In this document: positions 1-57,002 of the stretch, one piece after another
How the letters are laid out: every line of letters begins with the position of its first letter
Numbering within the stretch: the first letter of the stretch is position 1
Virus record (IMG/VR): IMGVR_UViG_3300003690_002850
Location: 1 to 64,000 of that record
Source: a virus
Reading direction: 5' to 3' (one strand)
DNA: 64,000 nt
Position numbers and translations under genes: made by a program
The notes under the pieces: model-generated
The model's database searches: none
Told to the model about the DNA's origin: nothing
Seen by the model: only the letters and a program-made list of their open reading frames with translations

Positions 1-2
1 AT

Positions 3-959
3 GAAAGCTTGCTAGAAGATCCTAATTTTCCTGATTGGGCAAAAGATCTTCTTGCAAGAGGTATGGCCCACTCGGAAGCTGAGGATGAGGAGCCTGGTTC
101 AGGTGAGATGAGTGGTGAAGATTTTAAACGGTTTGAGACGCTAATGGATTCAAGTTACTTTGACGAGGATCCCGCTGGTGAGGTGTTCGATTATGAACAA
201 GAAGAGATGGAAGATATGTTGAAAAGTCGGACTGGAGCGCCTGATAATGTGAAATGGCTTGGTTCGCACGGTCCTACTCAAGGAGGTGATGTACCAATGC
301 AAAGGAACTTGAATAAACATGAACAACCTTCAGGACAATCACGCAGTTGGCAACATATGATACCGCCCGGTGGTGATGACAATGAATTAATTGGTAATGT
401 TTTTGACTACATCATAAACCTCAAGCGTGAAGGAATTGGCTTTGATCAGCTACGTAAGATGAATTTTGAACGAGAGTTTTTACCTCAAGTCGGAAATTAT
501 GTGAGAAAGATGGTTGTGGCCCATCAAGCTTTGGGCCACGCGCATGCACAGCAATCAGCCGCAGCAGATGCTCAAAAAGCTAAAGATGAGTTACAAAAAG
601 ATCAGCTACCTAAAAGACCAGGCCAACCAGATGAATTCAGCGATGATGTAAATCCGAATGTTGAATGGTGGGCGCCATCCGATTTTGAATGGTGGGATCG
701 GCGGGATGATGTTATTGCATATCGCGATATGCATAATAGTGATAAGATCGAACAATATAAGAACATCGCTGATAAAATAATAGAGAATCCTTTTGACGAC
801 GGACTGCACCATTTTAATGGTCTAATGCTTCCCGACAAACACAAGCAGACGAATGGCTTAAGCAGTATCATAGTACAAAGGATAGTAGAAAGCCCAATCA
901 AGCACATATCAAACATCCATATGGAGCAGGTGGCCCTCAGAGTGCCTTACAAACTATGA
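3..959 (+). CDS. Hypothetical acidic protein, 5'-truncated by window edge
   Basis: I do not recognise this family. The frame is open to the left edge, so the true start lies outside the window; the first possible internal start is a TTG at 9. The visible ~316 residues are hydrophilic and acidic, with WW-containing patches (around residues 222-232) and an Ala/Gln/Lys stretch near residues 180-200 that could be helical. The stop overlaps the ATG of the next gene (ATGA). The last ~35 codons are doubtful: from about 830 another frame reads a more phage-like tail (HPYGAGGPQSAL) that runs straight into the next gene. By position it may be an internal virion protein, which is inference only. Confidence 0.6.
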   Translation, partial: ESLLEDPNFPDWAKDLLARGMAHSEAEDEEPGSGEMSGEDFKRFETLMDSSYFDEDPAGEVFDYEQEEMEDMLKSRTGAPDNVKWLGSHGPTQGGDVPMQRNLNKHEQPSGQSRSWQHMIPPGGDDNELIGNVFDYIINLKREGIGFDQLRKMNFEREFLPQVGNYVRKMVVAHQALGHAHAQQSAAADAQKAKDELQKDQLPKRPGQPDEFSDDVNPNVEWWAPSDFEWWDRRDDVIAYRDMHNSDKIEQYKNIADKIIENPFDDGLHHFNGLMLPDKHKQTNGLSSIIVQRIVESPIKHISNIHMEQVALRVPYKL

Positions 960-2122
960 GTAATCGACCATCATTTAAAGAGTTCTTTGCAGACTCGCTT
1001 GAAGAAGGAATAACAGATAAAGCATTTATATTGTTGGCATGGTCTGATAGAGGAATGAGTCAAATAAAGATTACATCTGTCCCGAAAGTAGATATGCCAT
1101 CTGTGTTTTTAACTGGTCTTCGTGCATTGAACGAAGATGGAGATGAAGAAGGATTCGAAGTCATGGAACCAGAAGAGCTATCTATACAACAAGTAATAGA
1201 ACAGTCTGGTAAAATAGATGCTGACCTTACCCTCACAGATGATGATTTTCTGGCAATACGACAAGATCTTAATGGGATAAAAGCCGCTCTTGATCAAGAA
1301 GCATTTGAGGATGAAGATAGAGAAAATGTTACTAAGGTACTTACCAAGATAATTGACGACGGAGTAGCAGACTATTTTGAATTTCAACACGGTAATCATA
1401 TGGAAGAAGAGCCTGATGTGATCTTCTTTCCAACAGATCCAAATAAGTGGTGGGATGTTAAGGCAACTGATCATGTCGACACTCTGATTAAGCAACGCAT
1501 CCGTCAGAACTTTGGCCATGGATCGTCTGATCCGCTAATTGATACAGGCAACGAGAGTAAACACCCAACATTTAAGCAGTACTTTAATGAGGCAGGAAGT
1601 GATCGTCCCAGTCGGTTTATCAAGCCCTCTAAAGCAAAATCTGCCAAAGTTGGGCTCGGCCTCCGCTCCAGCGTGCTCCCGCCCGCTGTAGCAGCAGTAT
1701 TACATGATGAACTGGCTGTGAAAAAATTACATGATGATAATAATGGTAGTGCTTCAGAAGTAGCTCGACAACTAAGTGCACAATTGAACACCACGGTTCA
1801 CATATCCGCCGTTGCAAGGTATTTTAAAAAATACGGTTTACCGGTGTTTCAGTCTGGACTTGGCTTGCCCCGGAAAGGTTATCGAGTCTCCGACGATGCC
1901 GACTTGCAGATTCGAACAAGACAAATATTAAGAGATCCCGTTCAATTAAAATACTACCATGATAAACATCAAGGAAATGCTGCTGCTGTGGGTAGAGAAA
2001 TAGGACGCGCAAGAGATACTGGTATACCAGGCAATGTAGGTGCAGCACATCAGACTTTCCCAGGATCGTCTCAAACTGTAAAGACTAATCTACCAGGACC
2101 AAGAAGAGGTAAAGGACATTAA
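956..2122 (+). CDS. Putative internal head protein with helix-turn-helix-like C-terminus
   Basis: 388 residues, family not recognised. The N-terminus (PSFKEFFADSLEEG) resembles a T4 capsid-targeting peptide: a short amphipathic leader with an L-x-E site of the kind the gp21 prohead protease cuts. A second copy-like segment, TFKQYFNEA, lies near residues 205-213. Residues 1-200 are very acidic. Residues ~254-295 (SASEVARQL...AVARYFKKYGL) look like a helix-turn-helix, and a similar half-repeat follows around residues 328-350 (NAAAVGREIG). The product may therefore be a DNA-binding protein packaged in the head. The ATG overlaps the previous stop. Confidence 0.6.
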   Translation: MSNRPSFKEFFADSLEEGITDKAFILLAWSDRGMSQIKITSVPKVDMPSVFLTGLRALNEDGDEEGFEVMEPEELSIQQVIEQSGKIDADLTLTDDDFLAIRQDLNGIKAALDQEAFEDEDRENVTKVLTKIIDDGVADYFEFQHGNHMEEEPDVIFFPTDPNKWWDVKATDHVDTLIKQRIRQNFGHGSSDPLIDTGNESKHPTFKQYFNEAGSDRPSRFIKPSKAKSAKVGLGLRSSVLPPAVAAVLHDELAVKKLHDDNNGSASEVARQLSAQLNTTVHISAVARYFKKYGLPVFQSGLGLPRKGYRVSDDADLQIRTRQILRDPVQLKYYHDKHQGNAAAVGREIGRARDTGIPGNVGAAHQTFPGSSQTVKTNLPGPRRGKGH

Positions 2123-2126
2123 AAGG

Positions 2127-2134
2127 AATAAATA
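2127..2134 (+). promoter_or_regulatory. Late-type promoter (AATAAATA)
   Basis: AATAAATA matches the T4 late promoter core (TATAAATA) with one change. Six bases separate it from the ATG at 2141, so the expected start of transcription falls within a base of that ATG and leaves no room for a leader. Confidence 0.5.
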
Positions 2135-2140
2135 ATTAAT

Positions 2141-2449
2141 ATGAGCGAGCTTAGCAATGCAGTATCACCGACGTTTAATAAGACGATTAAACGTTTATCT
2201 GAAAGTGATGCTTTATCGATAGCTAATAGCCATATGGTAAGTACAAAGACCTCTGGGCTTGGTACTCCTCAACTACATATACTAGATGCAGCAGATGGTG
2301 ACTCTGGTGTAGTAGAATATCCAAATGAACAATATGGTGGATCAACAGTAGTAGTTGTCAAGGATGGTGAAGTTATCTGGTCTGGCCTATCTTATGAAGG
2401 AATAAGTAATATTGGTCAAGATGCAGAGCGTAGTATTGGGAATAGATAA
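2141..2449 (+). CDS. Hypothetical small protein, 102 aa
   Basis: Not recognised. The N-terminus contains RLSESD near residue 20, an L-x-E site like other genes of this block. The C-terminal half (about residues 50-100) alternates short strands with glycine turns (GGSTVVVVKDGEVIWSG), suggesting a small beta domain. There is no Shine-Dalgarno; a late promoter element lies immediately upstream. The context suggests a minor head-core protein. Confidence 0.55.
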   Translation: MSELSNAVSPTFNKTIKRLSESDALSIANSHMVSTKTSGLGTPQLHILDAADGDSGVVEYPNEQYGGSTVVVVKDGEVIWSGLSYEGISNIGQDAERSIGNR

Positions 2450-2452
2450 ATA
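2445..2452 (+). promoter_or_regulatory. Late-type promoter (GATAAATA)
   Basis: GATAAATA overlaps the stop codon of the preceding gene and lies nine bases before the ATG at 2462. The core TAAATA followed by AATTA recurs upstream of many genes in this window. Confidence 0.5.
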
Positions 2453-2461
2453 ATTAAAACA

Positions 2462-2797
2462 ATGAAAGATACAGAAGCACAACTAATGTGGGAAGCCATG
2501 CAAAAGGCGAAAAAAAGTAACGAAGAACCGATTGAAGATAATTCAACAGAAACTGTTGCTTACAGTGAGAAGCATGATACAGCTAAGTGCGATCGTTGCA
2601 ATGGCACCGGACGTCATGGTGATCAAGACTGTAAGAAGTGCGGTGGTGATGGCTGGATAGACGCTAAAGATGTTGTTAAACCATCGGGCGCGACACCACA
2701 AGAAAAACCAAAACAAAAAAATCCCGGCAAGGGTCCCGCGCGACTGAGTCGATCTCCGTACGGTGGTGCTGGTGGCGCACAACACAAATTTCTCTAA
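2462..2797 (+). CDS. Leader-bearing protein with DnaJ-like zinc module
   Basis: 111 residues. It begins with MKDTEAQLMWEA, one of five near-identical N-terminal leaders in this region (also at 3755, 4232, 4820 and 6747), interpreted here as a capsid-targeting peptide cut after Glu. Residues 43-66 hold two CxxCxGxG motifs (CDRCNGTG and CKKCGGDG), the signature of half a DnaJ cysteine-rich zinc domain, but no J-domain is present. The C-terminus is basic and Gly-rich (SPYGGAGGAQHKFL). It is likely a small zinc-binding internal head protein; the function of the zinc module is unknown. Confidence 0.6.
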   Translation: MKDTEAQLMWEAMQKAKKSNEEPIEDNSTETVAYSEKHDTAKCDRCNGTGRHGDQDCKKCGGDGWIDAKDVVKPSGATPQEKPKQKNPGKGPARLSRSPYGGAGGAQHKFL

Positions 2798-2808
2798 GGA
2801 TTAATACC

Positions 2809-3747
2809 ATGGACACACAAAACCGAACAAGTAGATCAGAGGGCTTAGATAAAATCGTAGAGTCTATGTATAGCCCTGTAACTGAGGGTAAGAGCCATAA
2901 TTGCGCCACACATGTAGAGCATTCTAAATGGGGCCACGGCGCATGTATTGCTGAGGGCCATGCTGAACCAGATGCAAATGGCAATGTAGCATGGTATAAT
3001 GTTATATTTGAACACGGTACTGAAAAAGTGAATACCGATGATGTTAAAGTAGTTAAGTCTAGCCATCATATGCACGCCAGTCATAAACCTAAGAAAAAGA
3101 AAAAGGCTAATGAGGCTAGGGATCCTAGAATTAATATATCGCGTCAGCGTGGCGAGGAGTACTTGAAGACGAAAAAGGCAGAGGCTGAAGGATGGAGGCG
3201 TTGTCCTCACAAGTGCAAGCCAGACGACAAGGGTATATATCGCATGACAGATGGTGCATTTTGTGACGAATGTGACGGAAAGGGGTATGTTCCTCAAGAT
3301 CATATCTCACCTGGCGCGCGAGGGAAGCTTGATGTGCCGAGCACTGACACTGATCGAGTCCAAGGAATGTACGCTTCTGTTAAGGTTGAAGATAATAGTC
3401 TAGATGCTTGGAATACTAAGATGCAAGGTGAGGAGGGCTTCCAGTCTGGAGATTTTGTAGATATTGAAGATCCTGATGATGAATATGCCAGTCAGGCTGA
3501 ATGGGTAGTTGTTCAAGTCGAAGGAGATGAGGTTACTGTTGCTAAAGTCGATGAGAATGATGTTCGCACATTACCTGCACAAAATGTTACAAGGACAGGT
3601 GGCGGTAGCACATCTCAAGTATCTTCAATGTTAGATGCTGCAGCAGGTGGAGACTTTATCAGCCATCTTAATTCGATCGAATTCGACGAGCGGGGCGCTG
3701 CTGCTCTTGTTGAATGGTTAGCACGATATAACTTAGGCGCATCCTGA
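2809..3747 (+). CDS. Putative internal head protein with zinc ribbon and SH3-like segment
   Basis: 312 residues, family not recognised. The leader contains KIVESM (I-x-E, residues 16-18). Residues ~40-85 form a chromo/SH3-like strand-rich segment (WYNVIFEHG...VKVV) followed by His- and Lys-rich sequence (KPKKKKK). Cysteines 132/136 and 152/155 (CPHKC, CDECDGKG) form a second DnaJ-like zinc knuckle, echoing the gene just upstream. Residues ~212-262 look like another small SH3-like beta domain. An AAGGA precedes the ATG by 8 bases, so this start has a Shine-Dalgarno, unlike most neighbours. Confidence 0.6.
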   Translation: MDTQNRTSRSEGLDKIVESMYSPVTEGKSHNCATHVEHSKWGHGACIAEGHAEPDANGNVAWYNVIFEHGTEKVNTDDVKVVKSSHHMHASHKPKKKKKANEARDPRINISRQRGEEYLKTKKAEAEGWRRCPHKCKPDDKGIYRMTDGAFCDECDGKGYVPQDHISPGARGKLDVPSTDTDRVQGMYASVKVEDNSLDAWNTKMQGEEGFQSGDFVDIEDPDDEYASQAEWVVVQVEGDEVTVAKVDENDVRTLPAQNVTRTGGGSTSQVSSMLDAAAGGDFISHLNSIEFDERGAAALVEWLARYNLGAS

Positions 3748-3754
3748 TAATACA

Positions 3755-4225
3755 ATGAAAGATAATGACGCACAACTAATGATGGAAGCTTTGAGAGACA
3801 ACGACCGCTGGGATGCCCGGCGCGGACGCGATGATGGGAGCGGAGCAGAACATGCCAAGGCTGTACAATGGACTAAAGATATCAAAGCCAAACTTGCACA
3901 AGCGCAGGAGGTCGGTGACTCGAAAGAAGCAAATAAGCTTCAACGTTATCTCGACATGCATGGTATTGACGAAGATGGAGGTGCCCAACAGTTTGATCCT
4001 GGTATACATGGACCATTAGACAGAGTCTCCGTTCTAGTCATAGGTAAAATAAGTGACTTTAAAGATAAATCAATCGACGATCTTATCTATTCATCTATAG
4101 AAGATGTTGAGTCTGAAATGGGTGATGACCCGTCAGCCAAACACGATCTTAATCAACTTGATGTCAATAGTAAGGTTAAAGATTTAATCATTGATAGTCT
4201 CCATCAGCTAGTCTATGGAAAATAA
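3755..4225 (+). CDS. Leader-bearing hypothetical protein, 156 aa
   Basis: Starts with MKDNDAQLMMEA, the shared leader. The rest is unrecognised: a charged helical stretch (residues ~15-70) with RWDARRGRDDG, then an acidic helical C-terminal half. The leader DNA (3755-3790) matches those at 4232, 4820 and 6747 almost base for base, whereas the downstream parts are unrelated. This fits a swappable targeting cassette joined to different cargo domains. It is likely a minor internal head protein. Confidence 0.6.
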   Translation: MKDNDAQLMMEALRDNDRWDARRGRDDGSGAEHAKAVQWTKDIKAKLAQAQEVGDSKEANKLQRYLDMHGIDEDGGAQQFDPGIHGPLDRVSVLVIGKISDFKDKSIDDLIYSSIEDVESEMGDDPSAKHDLNQLDVNSKVKDLIIDSLHQLVYGK

Positions 4226-4231
4226 AAATCT

Positions 4232-4816
4232 ATGAAGGATAAAGACGCACACCTAATGATGGAAGCCTTAAAAGAGGCGACGCTAGATAAGTGGCCAACC
4301 GATATTGCACCAGGCGAGCGTAGCGCACCCGGGACTCAACCAAACTCTGCTGTTGGTGCTCGTGTCAGATTTAAATCTATTTTTCTTTGGAACTTAGCTA
4401 CTGCAGAGCATAATGCTAAGAAATCACCGAAAGTTGTTATTGCAGATAATGGTGAGACTGTTATGGTAAGTAATGCAGGGCCACGTGACGAGGACTTCTT
4501 AACTAAATACCCGGCTGAAGGTCCGTTTGAGAAATCTGAATTCTTTTTAATGACTGATGATGAAAAATACGATGGAGAAGCGGCAAACAGCCAATATGAA
4601 CGTTTCTTTCCTCCAGAATCTACGGCAGCAGCTTTTGAGGCTGAGTTTCAGGCCAAGCGAAAGGAGTACTATCGTAACAAGGAGTACTGGGCCGATTACC
4701 AGCAGAAACAATCATACAAAGATCAGGGGGCAAAGGATAAAATGGCCGACAAGAAGCGCGCTGGAATGACTCACTGGCCCTCCGACGTCGATACCGGCGT
4801 CGGTACACCGGTCTAG
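4232..4816 (+). CDS. Leader-bearing hypothetical protein, 194 aa
   Basis: Starts with MKDKDAHLMMEA, the shared leader. Residues ~40-105 are strand-rich (ARVRFKSIFLW, KVVIADNGETVMV) and the C-terminal third is helical, charged and Tyr/Gln/Lys-rich. No family recognised. It lies six bases after the preceding stop and four bases before the next leader-bearing gene, so the set probably forms one late transcription unit. Confidence 0.6.
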   Translation: MKDKDAHLMMEALKEATLDKWPTDIAPGERSAPGTQPNSAVGARVRFKSIFLWNLATAEHNAKKSPKVVIADNGETVMVSNAGPRDEDFLTKYPAEGPFEKSEFFLMTDDEKYDGEAANSQYERFFPPESTAAAFEAEFQAKRKEYYRNKEYWADYQQKQSYKDQGAKDKMADKKRAGMTHWPSDVDTGVGTPV

Positions 4817-4819
4817 ATC

Positions 4820-5212
4820 ATGAGAGATAAAGACGCACAACTAATGATGGAAGCGTACTTGCACGAGGATCTGAAGATCGATCCTAAGACACAAGAACCA
4901 CAACCGGTTGGGTTATCTGGTGCAGGACTTACTTCATGGATTACCACTACAAAACATCTAAAAGAATTTACTCATAAGTGGATGGATGAGCATAAAGAAA
5001 GGATAAAATATCTTAATGAAGATGAAGTCCAGGTATTAGTTTTAGCTGCATATAAAGAAGAATACCCATCACTGTGGCGAACAGTAACTGATGAAGTGAA
5101 AATATGGGTGCGATGGTTCATACAAACTATTATATGGATATTCATGACTGTTGGAAAAAAACAGCAGGATTTTAAGGATATTGGTAATACAGGAGAAGAC
5201 AATGTTAGATAG
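4820..5212 (+). CDS. Leader-bearing membrane-associated hypothetical protein
   Basis: 130 residues beginning MRDKDAQLMMEAY. After the leader comes a charged helical region, then one hydrophobic, Trp-rich segment at residues ~96-112 (WVRWFIQTIIWIFMTVG) that could cross a membrane. A targeting leader together with a membrane segment is unusual: if it is a packaged protein it could act at the host envelope after injection, which is inference. The end overlaps the start of the next gene by 11 bases. Confidence 0.55.
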   Translation: MRDKDAQLMMEAYLHEDLKIDPKTQEPQPVGLSGAGLTSWITTTKHLKEFTHKWMDEHKERIKYLNEDEVQVLVLAAYKEEYPSLWRTVTDEVKIWVRWFIQTIIWIFMTVGKKQQDFKDIGNTGEDNVR

Positions 5213-5531
5213 AGAACAAGATAAAGCAATTAATGAGGCTATGAGGCGATTGGATGAAGCTCTTCCTGGGTTTAGTACTGATAATCCACGGGATAAAGAA
5301 GATTACGTGGCTGCAATGGTTGCCAATCATGCTCCTAAGTTACATCAGGTATTAAAAGGAAAAGACCCTGACAAAGACTTCGATGTTATTAAAGGTGAAA
5401 TATTAAGATGGTCTACAACTAAAAATCTTGATCATGCCGCTGCTGTACAAACTGTACTGCTTAATCGGATTCTACAATTGTTAGATCGGGATAAAGGTCA
5501 ACCTGATCCTGGTATTACCCAATGGCGGTAG
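5202..5531 (+). CDS. Hypothetical protein with I-x-E leader, 109 aa
   Basis: Start chosen at the ATG at 5202 because GGAGAAG lies just upstream and the product then begins MLDREQDKAINEAM, with an I-N-E site near residue 11 like a capsid-targeting peptide. The rest is predicted mainly helical (KGEILRWSTTKNLDHAAAV). Family not recognised. It overlaps the previous gene by 11 bases in another frame. Confidence 0.5.
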   Translation: MLDREQDKAINEAMRRLDEALPGFSTDNPRDKEDYVAAMVANHAPKLHQVLKGKDPDKDFDVIKGEILRWSTTKNLDHAAAVQTVLLNRILQLLDRDKGQPDPGITQWR

Positions 5532-5537
5532 ATTAAA

Positions 5538-5654
5538 ATGGATACTTATAAGGCGACGAAGCCGACGTTAGACGAACTAGAAAAACAGATAAAGAAGCTC
5601 CGGTTTATTGATATAAGAGATAATCCGTGGAGTATCTTATACATGTTTATATAA
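5538..5654 (+). CDS. Small ORF, 38 aa
   Basis: Starts at ATG 5538, seven bases after the previous stop, and encodes a helical, charged peptide (KPTLDELEKQIKKLRF) ending in a hydrophobic tail (WSILYMFI). The codons fill the gap to the next late promoter, which overlaps the stop. There is no homology evidence; support is position and an intact frame only. Confidence 0.35.
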   Translation: MDTYKATKPTLDELEKQIKKLRFIDIRDNPWSILYMFI

Positions 5655-5657
5655 ATA
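5650..5657 (+). promoter_or_regulatory. Late promoter, exact TATAAATA
   Basis: A perfect T4 late promoter core. Seven bases separate it from the ATG at 5665, which has no Shine-Dalgarno, so the mRNA would begin at or just before the start codon. Confidence 0.65.
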
Positions 5658-5664
5658 TATATAG

Positions 5665-6126
5665 ATGAAGGCATTTAAAGAATATTTCCGGCAACTTCCG
5701 GCCATCAAGGAGAAATTAAGTCCTGATGCATCCTTTAATTACCGTTCATCGCGATCTGATCTGCCACCTGTAGAGCCTTCACAGCCAGACGAACGCCCAG
5801 CGTCGCAAGTTAAAGTGTCATTCGAAGCACTTAAGTTGTTAAATGCTTATACGGCTCAAATTGGGGAGTCGCCTGACCGAGCTCGACAAAACGTCGAGGA
5901 CACAGCGTTTGGCTGGGAAACTGCCTTTAAAGATCTTGTTGTAGCCCATCTTATTAAGATGCGAACTGCTAGTAGTGATGTGGGAACTGGATCGGCACAG
6001 GCTGATAGTCTATCGCGCGACTACATTACACAAGTATTAGCTATTATAGATCCACCAGAAGATGAATTTGGTCAAGCAGGTTCAGAGCCAGTTGGTCCAG
6101 ACGATCTCGTAGGAGCTCCAGCATAA
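5665..6126 (+). CDS. Putative internal head protein, 153 aa
   Basis: Begins MKAFKEYFRQLPAIKEKL, which closely resembles T4 capsid-targeting leaders (an F-K-x-Y/F-F amphipathic helix followed by I-K-E). Residues ~50-130 are helical and the ends are Pro/Asp-rich and acidic. Family not recognised. An exact late promoter drives it. Confidence 0.6.
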   Translation: MKAFKEYFRQLPAIKEKLSPDASFNYRSSRSDLPPVEPSQPDERPASQVKVSFEALKLLNAYTAQIGESPDRARQNVEDTAFGWETAFKDLVVAHLIKMRTASSDVGTGSAQADSLSRDYITQVLAIIDPPEDEFGQAGSEPVGPDDLVGAPA

Positions 6127-6149
6127 AGATAGAACTTTAACAACTTCCC

Positions 6150-6157
6150 GATAAATA
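6150..6157 (+). promoter_or_regulatory. Late-type promoter (GATAAATA)
   Basis: GATAAATA ends five bases before the ATG at 6163. The transcript would start on or within a base of that codon. Confidence 0.5.
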
Positions 6158-6162
6158 CATAT

Positions 6163-6363
6163 ATGAATATTCATGATGCAGAGACGATGCTGAAGACCTT
6201 GTCAAAATCGACTAAAGGTAAGATAGGTGAACAAGTACTCGGTGCACCGGTACCTAACCCCAATGAGATATGGGCCACTGTAGTAGCTATTAATAGTAAA
6301 TTAGCTGTTCTTCAGGAATCCTTTAAAGAATTAGAGAAGAATCAGACAGCTCCGTCATTTTGA
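6163..6363 (+). CDS. Small hypothetical protein, 66 aa
   Basis: Hydrophilic protein with a helical C-terminal half (SKLAVLQESFKELEKN, possible short coiled coil). It starts MNIHDAETML, loosely like the D-A-x-x-M part of the shared leaders but without a clear cleavage site. Not recognised. Confidence 0.5.
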   Translation: MNIHDAETMLKTLSKSTKGKIGEQVLGAPVPNPNEIWATVVAINSKLAVLQESFKELEKNQTAPSF

Positions 6364-6397
6364 AGATAGGAATTGCTCTTCTCCGTAACGTTATTAG

Positions 6398-6425
6398 TTG
6401 ACTTCTTCTAGTGCTATGCTATAAT
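6398..6425 (+). promoter_or_regulatory. Strong sigma70-type promoter (TTGACT-16-TATAAT, extended -10)
   Basis: TTGACT (6398-6403) and TATAAT (6420-6425) are separated by 16 bases, with TGC just before the -10. The ATG at 6433 lies eight bases after the last T, exactly where transcription should begin, so the message is predicted to be leaderless. With the hairpin at 6700-6728 it isolates one early gene among late genes. Confidence 0.8.
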
Positions 6426-6432
6426 ATACTCT

Positions 6433-6675
6433 ATGAACGCAAAGACATATGCACAATCCCAGTTGGATTTCGTAGGTGGTAATCGCGCGTCCTGGTTCAA
6501 GGATAACGCTCGATCGCGTCGTGTGACGGTGGAGATGACCCGCCAGCCAAACGGCGACTATTACATCAACTCAGCTAAGGCTAACTACAATGTAGGTGGC
6601 TCTAAGACTCAGGTTGGAGTTAACAATCGTAACCTACGCTACGAGCTTCTCACTAGCAATATCACAACTGGTTAA
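6433..6675 (+). CDS. Early monocistronic gene, 80-aa basic protein
   Basis: Not recognised. The product is basic (KDNARSRRVTVEMTR) with strand-like repeats and Gly/Asn turns, suggesting a small beta-rich protein. It has its own strong promoter and its own terminator, a self-contained cassette typical of an early host-takeover gene. There is no Shine-Dalgarno; the ATG sits at the expected transcription start. Confidence 0.65.
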   Translation: MNAKTYAQSQLDFVGGNRASWFKDNARSRRVTVEMTRQPNGDYYINSAKANYNVGGSKTQVGVNNRNLRYELLTSNITTG

Positions 6676-6699
6676 ACAATAATCGTAAGATTATCAGCA

Positions 6700-6728
6700 A
6701 GAGTATGGAGAAATCCATACTCTTTTTT
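6700..6728 (+). terminator. Rho-independent terminator
   Basis: A perfect 10-bp stem (AGAGTATGGA with TCCATACTCT) closed by a GAAA tetraloop and followed directly by a T-run. It ends the cassette that starts at the promoter at 6398. Confidence 0.9.
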
Positions 6729-6746
6729 ATTAAATATTTTAAAGCC

Positions 6747-7037
6747 ATGAGAGATAAAGACGCATATCTAATGATGGAAGCTTATAGTTCTAAGAAGTTA
6801 GATGAACAGCTGAATTCAGACTTTAGCTCATTAGGCAATGATGTCGACGGTATACCTGTCGATCAAGGTCACATAGTTCAATTAGTCAATAGTCCGGATC
6901 CTGAAAAGCAATACATTGTTTATGGAGCAGCTGCTGCTGGACCAAATGATGAAGCTATGGTAGATATAATCGAACTAGGGAAAGACATCAGCTTACCGAC
7001 GCAAAGATTAAAAGTTATAGGTGAATTAGGCGGATAA
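6747..7037 (+). CDS. Leader-bearing hypothetical protein, 96 aa
   Basis: Start set at ATG 6747 because the product then begins MRDKDAYLMMEAY, the fifth copy of the shared leader; the longer frame from 6705 would begin inside the terminator. A TTAAATA element lies 12 bases upstream. The rest is a small acidic, beta-rich domain (HIVQLVNSPDPEKQYIVYG) of unknown family. It is separated from the main leader-gene cluster by the early cassette. Confidence 0.6.
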   Translation: MRDKDAYLMMEAYSSKKLDEQLNSDFSSLGNDVDGIPVDQGHIVQLVNSPDPEKQYIVYGAAAAGPNDEAMVDIIELGKDISLPTQRLKVIGELGG

Positions 7038-7252
7038 AAGTTATACTTTCTCCCGAAAAGTATATGAATTCTAGGATTTATTGAATCACTGATAATTATT
7101 AAACCATTGAGAATTAATAAGATAGCGCATATTCTGTGCAGATTTATACAAAAATACTAGAAAGATCAGAATTTACTAACGGCCACAGCAACAATTTCTA
7201 TCAATGTCTTCGGAGTAAAGGAAAGTAAAGTGAAAATAACCGGAGAAAGGTG

Positions 7253-7281
7253 TTGCCAGATCCCCGAAAAGTTCCGATAAT
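7253..7281 (+). promoter_or_regulatory. Sigma70-type promoter (TTGCCA-17-GATAAT)
   Basis: TTGCCA (7253-7258) and GATAAT (7276-7281), spacer 17. The GTG start at 7291 is ten bases after the -10. The ~215 bases between the previous gene and this promoter show no convincing gene or RNA. Confidence 0.55.
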
Positions 7282-7290
7282 ATAGGCGTT

Positions 7291-7734
7291 GTGAGTGAGA
7301 TAGATAAGAAGATCGCAGAGGCAAAGAGGTGGGGTATCCAGCTCGGGATTGAGATAGGCATGAAGCGCGCAGGTGAGCTGATGGCTCGCGAGCTGCACAA
7401 CTTCAAGTTTCCAGAGGGTAAGATAGCTCATGAGGATGATGCGCTCAAACAATATGAGCCGAAGGATGATTCGACATTCGAATTCTCGTATCAGACATAC
7501 ACCGAGCGGGTGATGGCGAAGGAAGCGGCACGTCGCGTGAGAGGTGAGCGTGAGGATGCACAACGCAATGTGAGACGCCGCCGATCGAATCGCATGGTTG
7601 CTAAGAACCGTAAGCGCCGGACGGCAAGTAAGCCGAATGGGACGATATCACCTCCGGTTGACTTTTCTAAGATCGATGATGATCACGGCTATGATGAGCT
7701 CTTAGCTGAAGAAGGTATTTACGTTAAGGAATAA
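7291..7734 (+). CDS. Early basic protein, 147 aa
   Basis: Starts with GTG at 7291, close behind a promoter. The N-terminal third is helical (KKIAEAKRWGIQLGIEIGMKRA), the middle is acidic, residues ~85-120 are highly Arg/Lys-rich (RNVRRRRSNRM) and the tail is acidic. It could bind nucleic acid. The KRWG motif recurs in the small gene just downstream. Family not recognised. Confidence 0.6.
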   Translation: MSEIDKKIAEAKRWGIQLGIEIGMKRAGELMARELHNFKFPEGKIAHEDDALKQYEPKDDSTFEFSYQTYTERVMAKEAARRVRGEREDAQRNVRRRRSNRMVAKNRKRRTASKPNGTISPPVDFSKIDDDHGYDELLAEEGIYVKE

Positions 7735-7737
7735 GTA

Positions 7738-7765
7738 TTGACATTAGCTCCGGATACACTATAAT
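7738..7765 (+). promoter_or_regulatory. Consensus sigma70 promoter (TTGACA-16-TATAAT)
   Basis: Both hexamers are perfect: TTGACA at 7738-7743, TATAAT at 7760-7765, spacer 16. The ATG at 7773 is eight bases past the -10, the same geometry as at 6433 and 11594. Confidence 0.85.
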
Positions 7766-7772
7766 TATGGCA

Positions 7773-7913
7773 ATGGAAGAGATGAAAATGACAGAGAAGC
7801 AGACACAGAAGCTTAAGGATTGGAAGCGCTGGGGTCTGATGATGAAGCTCCTCAAAGCGATACACAGGGAGATTGAGCCTAGGAAGAAATTTTTACACGA
7901 TGCTATCAACTAA
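7773..7913 (+). CDS. Small early protein, 46 aa
   Basis: Encodes a Met/Lys-rich helical peptide (MEEMKMTEKQTQKLKDWKRW then LMMKLLKAIHREIEPRKK). The start at 7773 is chosen from the consensus promoter geometry; ATG 7788, with GGAAGAG upstream, would give 41 aa, and ATG 7767 lies too close to the -10. It shares KRWG with the preceding gene's N-terminus, so the two may be related. Function unknown. Confidence 0.5.
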   Translation: MEEMKMTEKQTQKLKDWKRWGLMMKLLKAIHREIEPRKKFLHDAIN

Positions 7914-7971
7914 AGAACAATTTATACCACACGGTCTAGGCAGATTTGCTACAACCCCTAAGAAGAATATT

Positions 7972-8439
7972 ATGAGTACGAAGAGTAAGAAGAACCCCGC
8001 CCCGGTACTGGCATGTATCATTACTGGCCAAGCGCGGAAGACATCCCACAACTACTTGAATGATAAGGCCAAGCGCCTTGGAGTCGGTAGTGATTGGTTG
8101 CTTAACAATTATGTGAGCAAGTTCGTTTGTAGTCAACTGCGCGCTGGTAAAGCGCTTAGTGACCTTCAGACGACAGATCGAGAGATCACAGATCAGCTGC
8201 TGACCGATCTGGTTAGGAAGAACTCTAAGAGCCGAGTGACTAATTTCTGGTTTAAGAATGGAGTTTATCAGACGGCTAAGCCCACCCCAAAGAAGGTCAA
8301 TAAGACAGAGCCTACTGTTGATGTTGAGTCACTTACTGCAAAGGTAAATGAAGAGCAAGCTGAGGCTGCAACGGTCCCAGCGCCTGCTAAGGTTGCATCC
8401 TTTGATGAGGTGTTAGATGAGCTGACCCAGCTGAGTTAA
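7972..8439 (+). CDS. Hypothetical protein, 155 aa
   Basis: Start chosen at ATG 7972 (MSTKSKKNPAPVLACIITGQ), because upstream in-frame codons overlap the previous small gene. The N-terminal 100 residues are basic and helical and look like a folded domain; the C-terminal 50 are Ala/Pro/Glu-rich and acidic. I do not recognise the family. By position it belongs to the early-gene cluster. Confidence 0.55.
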   Translation: MSTKSKKNPAPVLACIITGQARKTSHNYLNDKAKRLGVGSDWLLNNYVSKFVCSQLRAGKALSDLQTTDREITDQLLTDLVRKNSKSRVTNFWFKNGVYQTAKPTPKKVNKTEPTVDVESLTAKVNEEQAEAATVPAPAKVASFDEVLDELTQLS

Positions 8440-56602: not shown

Positions 56603-57002
56603 TATACCACATTATAGTGTATCTTAAATCATCGGCAAATGTTTTTTTGGTTTCAGAAAATTCTAATTGTTGTCCTGTCTGAATTATCATTGATCGATAT
56701 ATTGAATCCATTAAGCTATATCTAAGATCATGACCTTTTCTATCTTCAACATATCTAATTAATTTTTTAGGCTTTTTCAAAATCGTCAAAATTATCTCTA
56801 CAATTTCAATATTAGATATTTCTGAATGGTAGTCTGTGTCAGGAGCAAGGTTATATATCTTTCCTGCATCTCCTTGTGTTAATACGTTGTATATTTTTTC
56901 GCAATGGTCTTTGACGTATATCCATTGACGTATGTTATTACCTTTTCCATATACTGGAATTTGTTCATTATTATTAGCTTTGTAAGCAATAACTGGAATA
57001 AA
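56574..57002 (-). CDS. rmlB: dTDP-glucose 4,6-dehydratase (RmlB), C-terminal fragment
   Basis: Read from 57002, this frame begins FIPVIAYKANNNEQIPVYGK then GNNIRQWIYVKDHCEKIYNV and ends with KLIRYVEDRKGHDLRYSL and NEKWWNK, the standard RmlB C-terminus. It cannot be translated from a start of its own inside the domain except Met 56789, which lies too far in. About 23 residues (the usual NNYGP segment) separate it from the N-terminal part, now lost with a frame change. It overlaps rnh. Confidence 0.85.
   Translation of the reverse strand, partial: FIPVIAYKANNNEQIPVYGKGNNIRQWIYVKDHCEKIYNVLTQGDAGKIYNLAPDTDYHSEISNIEIVEIILTILKKPKKLIRYVEDRKGHDLRYSLMDSIYRSMIIQTGQQLEFSETKKTFADDLRYTIMWYIENEKWWNK

Follow-up and report, generated by a model that had tools for sequence, protein, structure and literature searches.

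The internal head proteins of bacteriophage T4 are packaged by means of a short N-terminal capsid-targeting sequence (CTS), of which the first 10 residues suffice; residues 4 and 7 act in targeting, residues 8 and 10 act in processing, and the head protease gp21 cleaves after L/I-X-E (PMC9026906). These internal proteins are basic (PMC9026906), and Ip1-3, which have only the leader in common, are injected and inhibit different GmrSD restriction enzymes (PMC12373910; PMC3012670). A short head address can carry a changing arsenal of injected anti-defense proteins, a picture that comes mainly from the T-even phages. Here, we analyzed a window of DNA comprising bases 1 to 64000, the left end of the incomplete 132,284-base IMG/VR virus record IMGVR_UViG_3300003690_002850 (G000), in which five genes open with the same short leader and continue into unrelated bodies. 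Most probably, the leader is a lineage-specific T4-like CTS that gp21 removes, and the proteins behind it are a shuffled set of head cargo. Such targeting is known in principle; the leader motif, its copy number and the evidence for swapping are new. This distant, uncultured T4-like lineage would use a different address, have more cargo genes and preserve direct traces of recombination between address and body.

Two further systems offer partial parallels. The head proteins gp53 and gp54 of SPN3US/phiKZ giant phages have identical N-terminal 15 residues, which are cut after Glu by a gp21 homologue (PMC5694885). As with the leader described here, a common N-terminal propeptide stands on diverged head proteins, but the motif is A-X-E or S/A-X-E, the propeptides are mostly much longer and the bodies are homologous (34% identical). 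In phage P1, the N-terminal 30 residues of DarB suffice to route a reporter to the capsid (PMC9024508); this signal differs from the leader in being longer and in belonging to an unrelated phage and sequence. A text search of the literature for leaders of this sort turned up none beyond the T-even phages and the giant phages.

One leader on unrelated genes

The peptide leader M[KR]D-x-[DE]A-x-LM[MW]EA opens the genes at 2462, 3755, 4232, 4820 and 6747 (Table 1), and a search of all six frames of the window returned substitution-free matches at exactly those five starts. A 35-nucleotide DNA pattern with up to three mismatches matched the last four copies only and gave no match in 100 shuffles, and a repeat finder grouped all five copies as one family. 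The three approaches agree with the original prediction that five genes share one leader at both the protein and the DNA level. The bodies, which it had called unrelated, are indeed so in most pairs of leader genes, where BLAST matched the leader only. In structure models, the 3755 body is all-helical (low confidence) and the 6747 body is a five-stranded SH3-like beta barrel (moderate confidence). A sixth gene, at 5202, bears a looser variant of the leader, MLDREQDKAINEA.

The shared unit is about 36 nucleotides long; it runs precisely from the ATG through codon 12, and the flanks on both sides are not shared. We profiled its boundaries as the mean pairwise identity of 14 directly alignable leader copies from G000 and two related phages. 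Identity was at background from -40 to -16 (0.24 to 0.27), rose at the ATG, stood at 0.83 to 0.91 from +2 to about +31, and was at background again by +38. Nothing upstream is shared, and the unit is therefore not a promoter or ribosome-site cassette. The Leu codon is CTA in 5/5 G000 leaders, a codon that accounts for 12% of Leu codons genome-wide. Because this rare codon is common to all five, the leaders are copies of one DNA sequence rather than convergent peptides.

Leaders and bodies as separable units

The two relatives, the IMG/VR records G001 (122 kb) and G002 (200 kb), also carry the leader. Copies in G002 lie at 81765, 83475, 84275, 84591, 84860, 85354 and 85786, with a looser leader at 56761 and a variant of the 5202 type at 86052; those in G001 lie at 2686, 3200 and 3562, and variants occur there at 2112 and 3955. 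The homologue of the first, truncated gene of the window is leader-bearing as well (G002:81765). The original prediction had proposed searching related phages for the leader as a DNA repeat on different bodies, and both relatives contain it in this form; its idea of a leader cassette gains support from recombination of leaders and bodies across the three phages.

Several comparisons bear directly on this recombination. The 2809 protein has no leader, yet its residues 22-230 match the body of G002:83475 directly behind the leader (51% over 220 columns, E = 1e-67), and its last 32 matched amino acids (residues 276-307) recur in the body of a further leader-bearing gene, G002:85354 (62%, E = 3e-9). 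G002:83475 and G002:84860 have a further module in common. The 3755 body sits behind the leader in all three phages. When the G001 pair 3200 and 3562 is compared with the G002 pair 84860 and 85354, a homologous upstream gene is followed by a near-identical leader with a different body. The 6747 body resembles the leaderless G001:9740, a weak match (E = 4e-5 without composition correction). The evidence from these sequence comparisons is direct: leader and body are separable units.

The leader DNA is also unusually constant between phages. At leader positions with the same amino acid, the same codon was used in 93/94 comparisons between G000 and G001, 162/185 between G000 and G002 and 107/119 between G001 and G002 (88-99%), comparisons that are not independent, as each copy is reused many times. 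The corresponding share in the orthologous gp21 and gp23 genes of the same phages is 67-78%. This contrast is large and means recent exchange of leaders, selection on the leader DNA, or both.

An IMG/VR search with the 2809 protein gave no match, and one with the alignment of the 3755 family returned only G001 and G002. Looser DNA patterns picked out five further IMG/VR loci (L023, L024, L026, L027 and L028), which lay inside long unrelated open reading frames (ORFs) or had no leader at a gene start and were judged to be chance matches. Relatives of gp21 (134 loci; 26 records searched) yielded no leader, an absence that says little because almost none of them span the leader-gene region.

Head genes and comparison with T4

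By its gene content, G000 is an incomplete T4-like genome, with gp20, gp21 and gp23 in the order typical of T4-like myoviruses at 125113-132106. Its gp21 shares the GELNHP block, the SSR block and the D-V-PS positions with T4 gp21. G001 and G002 also encode the gp21 protease, 90-92% identical to that of G000. The nearest named gp23 relatives, those of cyanophages, have only about 31-32% identity, which places the lineage far from everything in the phage collection; bases 1-8000 of the window had no direct nucleotide relatives there.

T4 itself presents the same picture as the window: the first 32 nucleotides of ipII and ipIII are identical (ATG...GCCGAAGC), and the genes are unrelated beyond. 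We applied a start-anchored repeat scan, a genome-wide search for DNA repeats at gene starts with diverged bodies. In T4, ipII/ipIII was the top pair, followed by alt/alt.-1, and ipI likewise paired with ipII and ipIII; 5/9 pairs were internal-head or CTS-like genes, and the other four came from homing-endonuclease genes. T4 gene 61.1 (L156, start 19130, minus strand), which starts MKTFKEFIKED, paired with ipII and ipIII at 22-23/30 bases, and so looks like a further T4 gene with a CTS-like start. In G000, the scan returned ten leader pairs together with a single family of true paralogues (83-89 kb), and in G002 it recovered the leader family. It found nothing in G017, three weak pairs in G023, none leader-like, and glycosyltransferase paralogues only in 100 kb of S-SSM7. 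The paralogue family of G000 lies outside the window, at 83971-89403 (L008/L009), as a gene run whose products begin MxYNILCAGCSFTxG or MxILNxGCSFS.

Like the T4 IPI-III leaders, the leader is a start-anchored segment of 10-11 residues that ends in hydrophobic-x-E/A (a slash marks the predicted cut) before unrelated bodies, and gp20, gp21 and gp23 occur in the same genome as the leader genes in both T4 and G000. Two features of the T4 system, a short N-terminal segment on unrelated proteins and an encoded cognate gp21, are thus present. CTS position 7, Phe in T4, is Leu in the leader; copies number five to seven, mostly in one run, versus three genes at two loci in T4; and the bodies have no homology to those of the T4 internal proteins. 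T4-type CTS genes occur in this virus group too: G002 80384 (MIPFKQYIAE/A) and 81172 (MKSFIDFINE/A), close matches to T4 MKTYQEFIAE/A, immediately precede leader gene 81765 within a single codirectional run. The cyanophages P-SSM7 and S-H38, which have the same T4-like genome type, carry CTSs of this kind (MKKFSAFLTEA and MKSYKEFLSEA). Unlike the leader, these G002 and cyanophage sequences keep the aromatic pattern, and the scans performed picked up no near-identical DNA repeat among them. The gp23 proteins of G000, G001 and G002 have a conserved C(L/I)RE/GN in the N-terminal region, where T4 gp23 has FLTE/AE. The T4-style capsid-targeting function originally predicted is supported by gp21, this gp23 site, which obeys the same cleavage rule, the canonical CTSs in the G002 run and the behavior of the T4 leader DNA.

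Evidence against a capsid-targeting function, and caveats to the evidence for it

A number of observations count against this function. The targeting Tyr4 of T4 is replaced by Asp/Glu in the standard leader copies, with no aromatic; the helical hydrophobic moment is 0.15 for the leader versus 0.45 for T4 ipIII; and P3 is often Met, versus Leu/Ile in the published T4 gp21 rule. The T4 internal proteins are basic, whereas most of the mature bodies here are acidic (net charge -10, -4, -3 and -8, with 2462 at +4; 4/5 acidic). Only three records, G000, G001 and G002, were found with the leader. Two results in favor of the function carry caveats. The cut-site pattern comes from 20 leader variants that were aligned on Glu by eye; in this alignment, P4 is Leu in 18/20, P3 is Met (12/20) or Ile (8/20) throughout, P2 is free (M/W/N/A/F) and P1' is Ala in 16/20. 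Second, [ILM]xE[AGS] falls within residues 4-24 in 9/13 G000 cluster genes (8/13 with the 6705 start) versus 8/152 elsewhere, and in 4/8 cluster genes when the leader family is left out (Fisher p = 0.001), but the region for this comparison was picked after being seen.

The Glu is residue 11 in standard copies, and an invariant Glu, beside a P2 that varies freely and a P3 that is always aliphatic, is the appearance expected of an x-x-E protease site. The (M/L)-x-E before Ala of the original prediction holds for Met at P3 (M-M-E and M-W-E) and fails for Leu, which is P4. Because of Asp/Glu for Tyr4, Met at P3 and the acidic bodies, the leader is not a T4 CTS by sequence; it presumably works like one, its prohead-core partner having changed with it.

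Alternative explanations

Among the alternatives, the best survivor, though improbable, is that the leader targets the prohead core and the bodies are scaffold or core components in the manner of T4 gp67, gp68 or gp22, degraded and lost rather than retained as cargo for injection. We retained it because the start of T4 gp22 (MLKEQLIAE/A) resembles AQLMMEA, its QLIAEA being nearer to it than the IPIII leader is, and the acidity of the mature bodies is in keeping with it. However, the bodies look accessory: they vary between close relatives, unlike core proteins, which are conserved, and they include zinc, barrel and membrane modules. Moreover, a scaffold-like gene already lies between gp21 and gp23 in G000.

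We consider it less probable still that the leader acts at the level of translation or RNA, for instance as a start-region enhancer or a regulator binding site, with the peptide incidental. Synonymous positions are unusually strongly conserved from phage to phage (93/94 and 162/185, against 67-78% in gp21/gp23), which would suit such an element, but the copies have nothing in common upstream of the ATG, no RNA structure was predicted for the leader by itself, and the indel and substitution variants MKYDTEAQLIWEA, MTETNKEEAKLIWEA and MLDREQDKAINEA retain the hydrophobic-[MI]-x-E peptide with far less of the DNA. Tandem duplication into paralogues with fast-diverging bodies and a constrained N terminus, without swapping, is the least credible, for although the leader genes are adjacent and codirectional, as T4 ipII and ipIII are adjacent, leader silent sites are nearly unchanged while the bodies have no detectable similarity, some bodies occur elsewhere both with and without the leader, and divergence alone yields no sharp boundary at codon 12.

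Proposed mechanism and significance

Under the model of a T4-like CTS on exchangeable cargo, we infer that the leader binds the core and is cleaved off, that the proteins reach the virion and are injected, and that their bodies serve in take-over or counter-defense. While the head assembles, the 11-residue segment M-[KR]-D-x-[DE]-A-x-L-[MI]-x-E would attach to the prohead core and bring the protein behind it into the head. The phage gp21 would then cut after the leader Glu, leaving mature proteins that mostly begin with Ala, and the mature cargo would stay in the head and probably be delivered with the DNA. Recombination in or next to the leader could exchange cargo bodies with the address retained, because targeting would lie wholly in a short start-anchored segment; near-identical leader DNA would be the record of this exchange. 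A more speculative and rather unlikely extension is that two head tags, the aromatic T4 type and the DKDAQLMME type, work side by side in one phage lineage and serve different cargo places or amounts, the leader DNA being kept near-invariant as a crossover site for body exchange between co-infecting phages.

If the proposed function is correct, the leader could serve as a search key, and the genes behind it would be candidate injected effectors. Start-anchored DNA repeats might likewise become a general finder of head cargo in large phage genomes, since the scan of T4 recovers known internal proteins.

Cargo genes and neighboring features

Table 1. Leader copies, predicted cargo genes, neighbors and head genes of G000 (aa, amino acids; slash, predicted cut)
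Feature	Position	Strand	Description or basis
Leader copy 1	2462..2497	+	MKDTEAQLMWE/A; diverges most among the G000 copies, P2 is W; peptide motif, repeat finder
Leader copy 2	3755..3790	+	MKDNDAQLMME/A; DNA pattern, peptide motif, repeat finder
Leader copy 3	4232..4267	+	MKDKDAHLMME/A; DNA pattern, peptide motif, repeat finder
Leader copy 4	4820..4855	+	MRDKDAQLMME/A; DNA pattern, peptide motif, repeat finder
Leader copy 5	6747..6782	+	MRDKDAYLMME/A; DNA pattern, peptide motif, repeat finder
Candidate cargo gene 1, 111 aa	2462..2797	+	Leader + zinc-module body (CDRCNGTG...CKKCGGDG)
Candidate cargo gene 2, 156 aa	3755..4225	+	Leader + helical body; homologues G001:3200 and G002:84860, both leader-bearing
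Candidate cargo gene 3, 194 aa	4232..4816	+	Leader + body without relatives
Candidate cargo gene 4, 130 aa	4820..5212	+	Leader + body with one hydrophobic segment
Candidate cargo gene 5, 96 aa	6747..7037	+	Leader + SH3-like beta-barrel body
Gene with looser leader variant, 109 aa	5202..5531	+	MLDREQDKAINE/A; homologue G002:86052 has AINE/S
Protein without leader, 312 aa	2809..3747	+	N terminus ...GLDKIVE/S
Neighbor gene	956..2122	+	T4-CTS-like start PSFKEFFADSLEE/G and internal TFKQYFNE/AGSD
Neighbor gene	5665..6126	+	MKAFKEYFRQLPAIKE..., T4-CTS-like start, no clean early cut site; sequence
Intrinsic terminator	6701..6729	+	GAGTATGG-AGAAA-TCCATACTC-TTTTTT; sequence; just upstream of 6747 gene
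Portal gp20	125113		Pfam Portal_T4, E 9e-105
gp21 protease	128732		Pfam Peptidase_S77, E = 3.9e-29
Scaffold-like gp22	129572		Between gp21 and gp23
gp23	130532		Pfam Gp23, E 2e-87

Family searches of the leader-gene bodies found no function. The 2462 body contains two CxxCxGxG zinc motifs, and the DnaJ-like module predicted for it is tentative, the match to Pfam DnaJ_CXXCXGXG (E = 3.7e-4) lying below the family cut-off. The membrane helix predicted in 4820 is plausible, with a hydrophobic segment at residues 93-111 (mean Kyte-Doolittle 1.4). A fold search with the 6747 model returned only weak SH3/KOW/Tudor-like matches (best E 0.025), none of them significant. A longer in-frame ORF for this gene, from 6705, was rejected: its start lies inside the terminator hairpin, and homology favors 6747. 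A hairpin near-identical to this terminator occurs in G002 (L007).

The ORFs at 3-959 and 956-2122 overlap and match one 538-amino-acid ORF in G001 (L022:63-1679). In G000 the gene has therefore been split or has undergone a frameshift, which may be genuine or reflect a sequencing error. The internal TFKQYFNE/AGSD, at about 1565-1605, stands exactly where the G001 homologue ends (STFKEYFNKY, then stop), and in 956-2122 a second body is fused behind this T4-CTS-like segment. The G001 homologue also holds an internal RPTFKQFFAESLQE/G. The 956-2122 protein could, from this arrangement, be a polyprotein-like cargo.

The SHNCATHVEHSKWGHG... module of the 2809 protein (residues 25-73) also occurs in Kyanoviridae cyanophages, where it adjoins genes annotated as 'cytitidyltransferase' with T4-like CTS starts (MKKFSAFLTEA and MKSYKEFLSEA). 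A T4 late-promoter-like NATAAATA upstream of 2141, 2462, 5665 and 6163 was discarded, as the reversed motif is equally common upstream of genes. At 6398-6433, directly before an 80-amino-acid gene at 6433, TTGACT-16-TATAAT looks like a strong sigma-70 type promoter; the gene and its promoter-like sequence are also present in G002 (L007, about 4740-4776). G002 further encodes a prepilin-type protein (RGFTLIELLVVIAIIAILAALLLPALGSAK...) at 64393-65385 (L021). Proteins of this type are abundant in Verrucomicrobiota and Planctomycetota, which hints at the host group.

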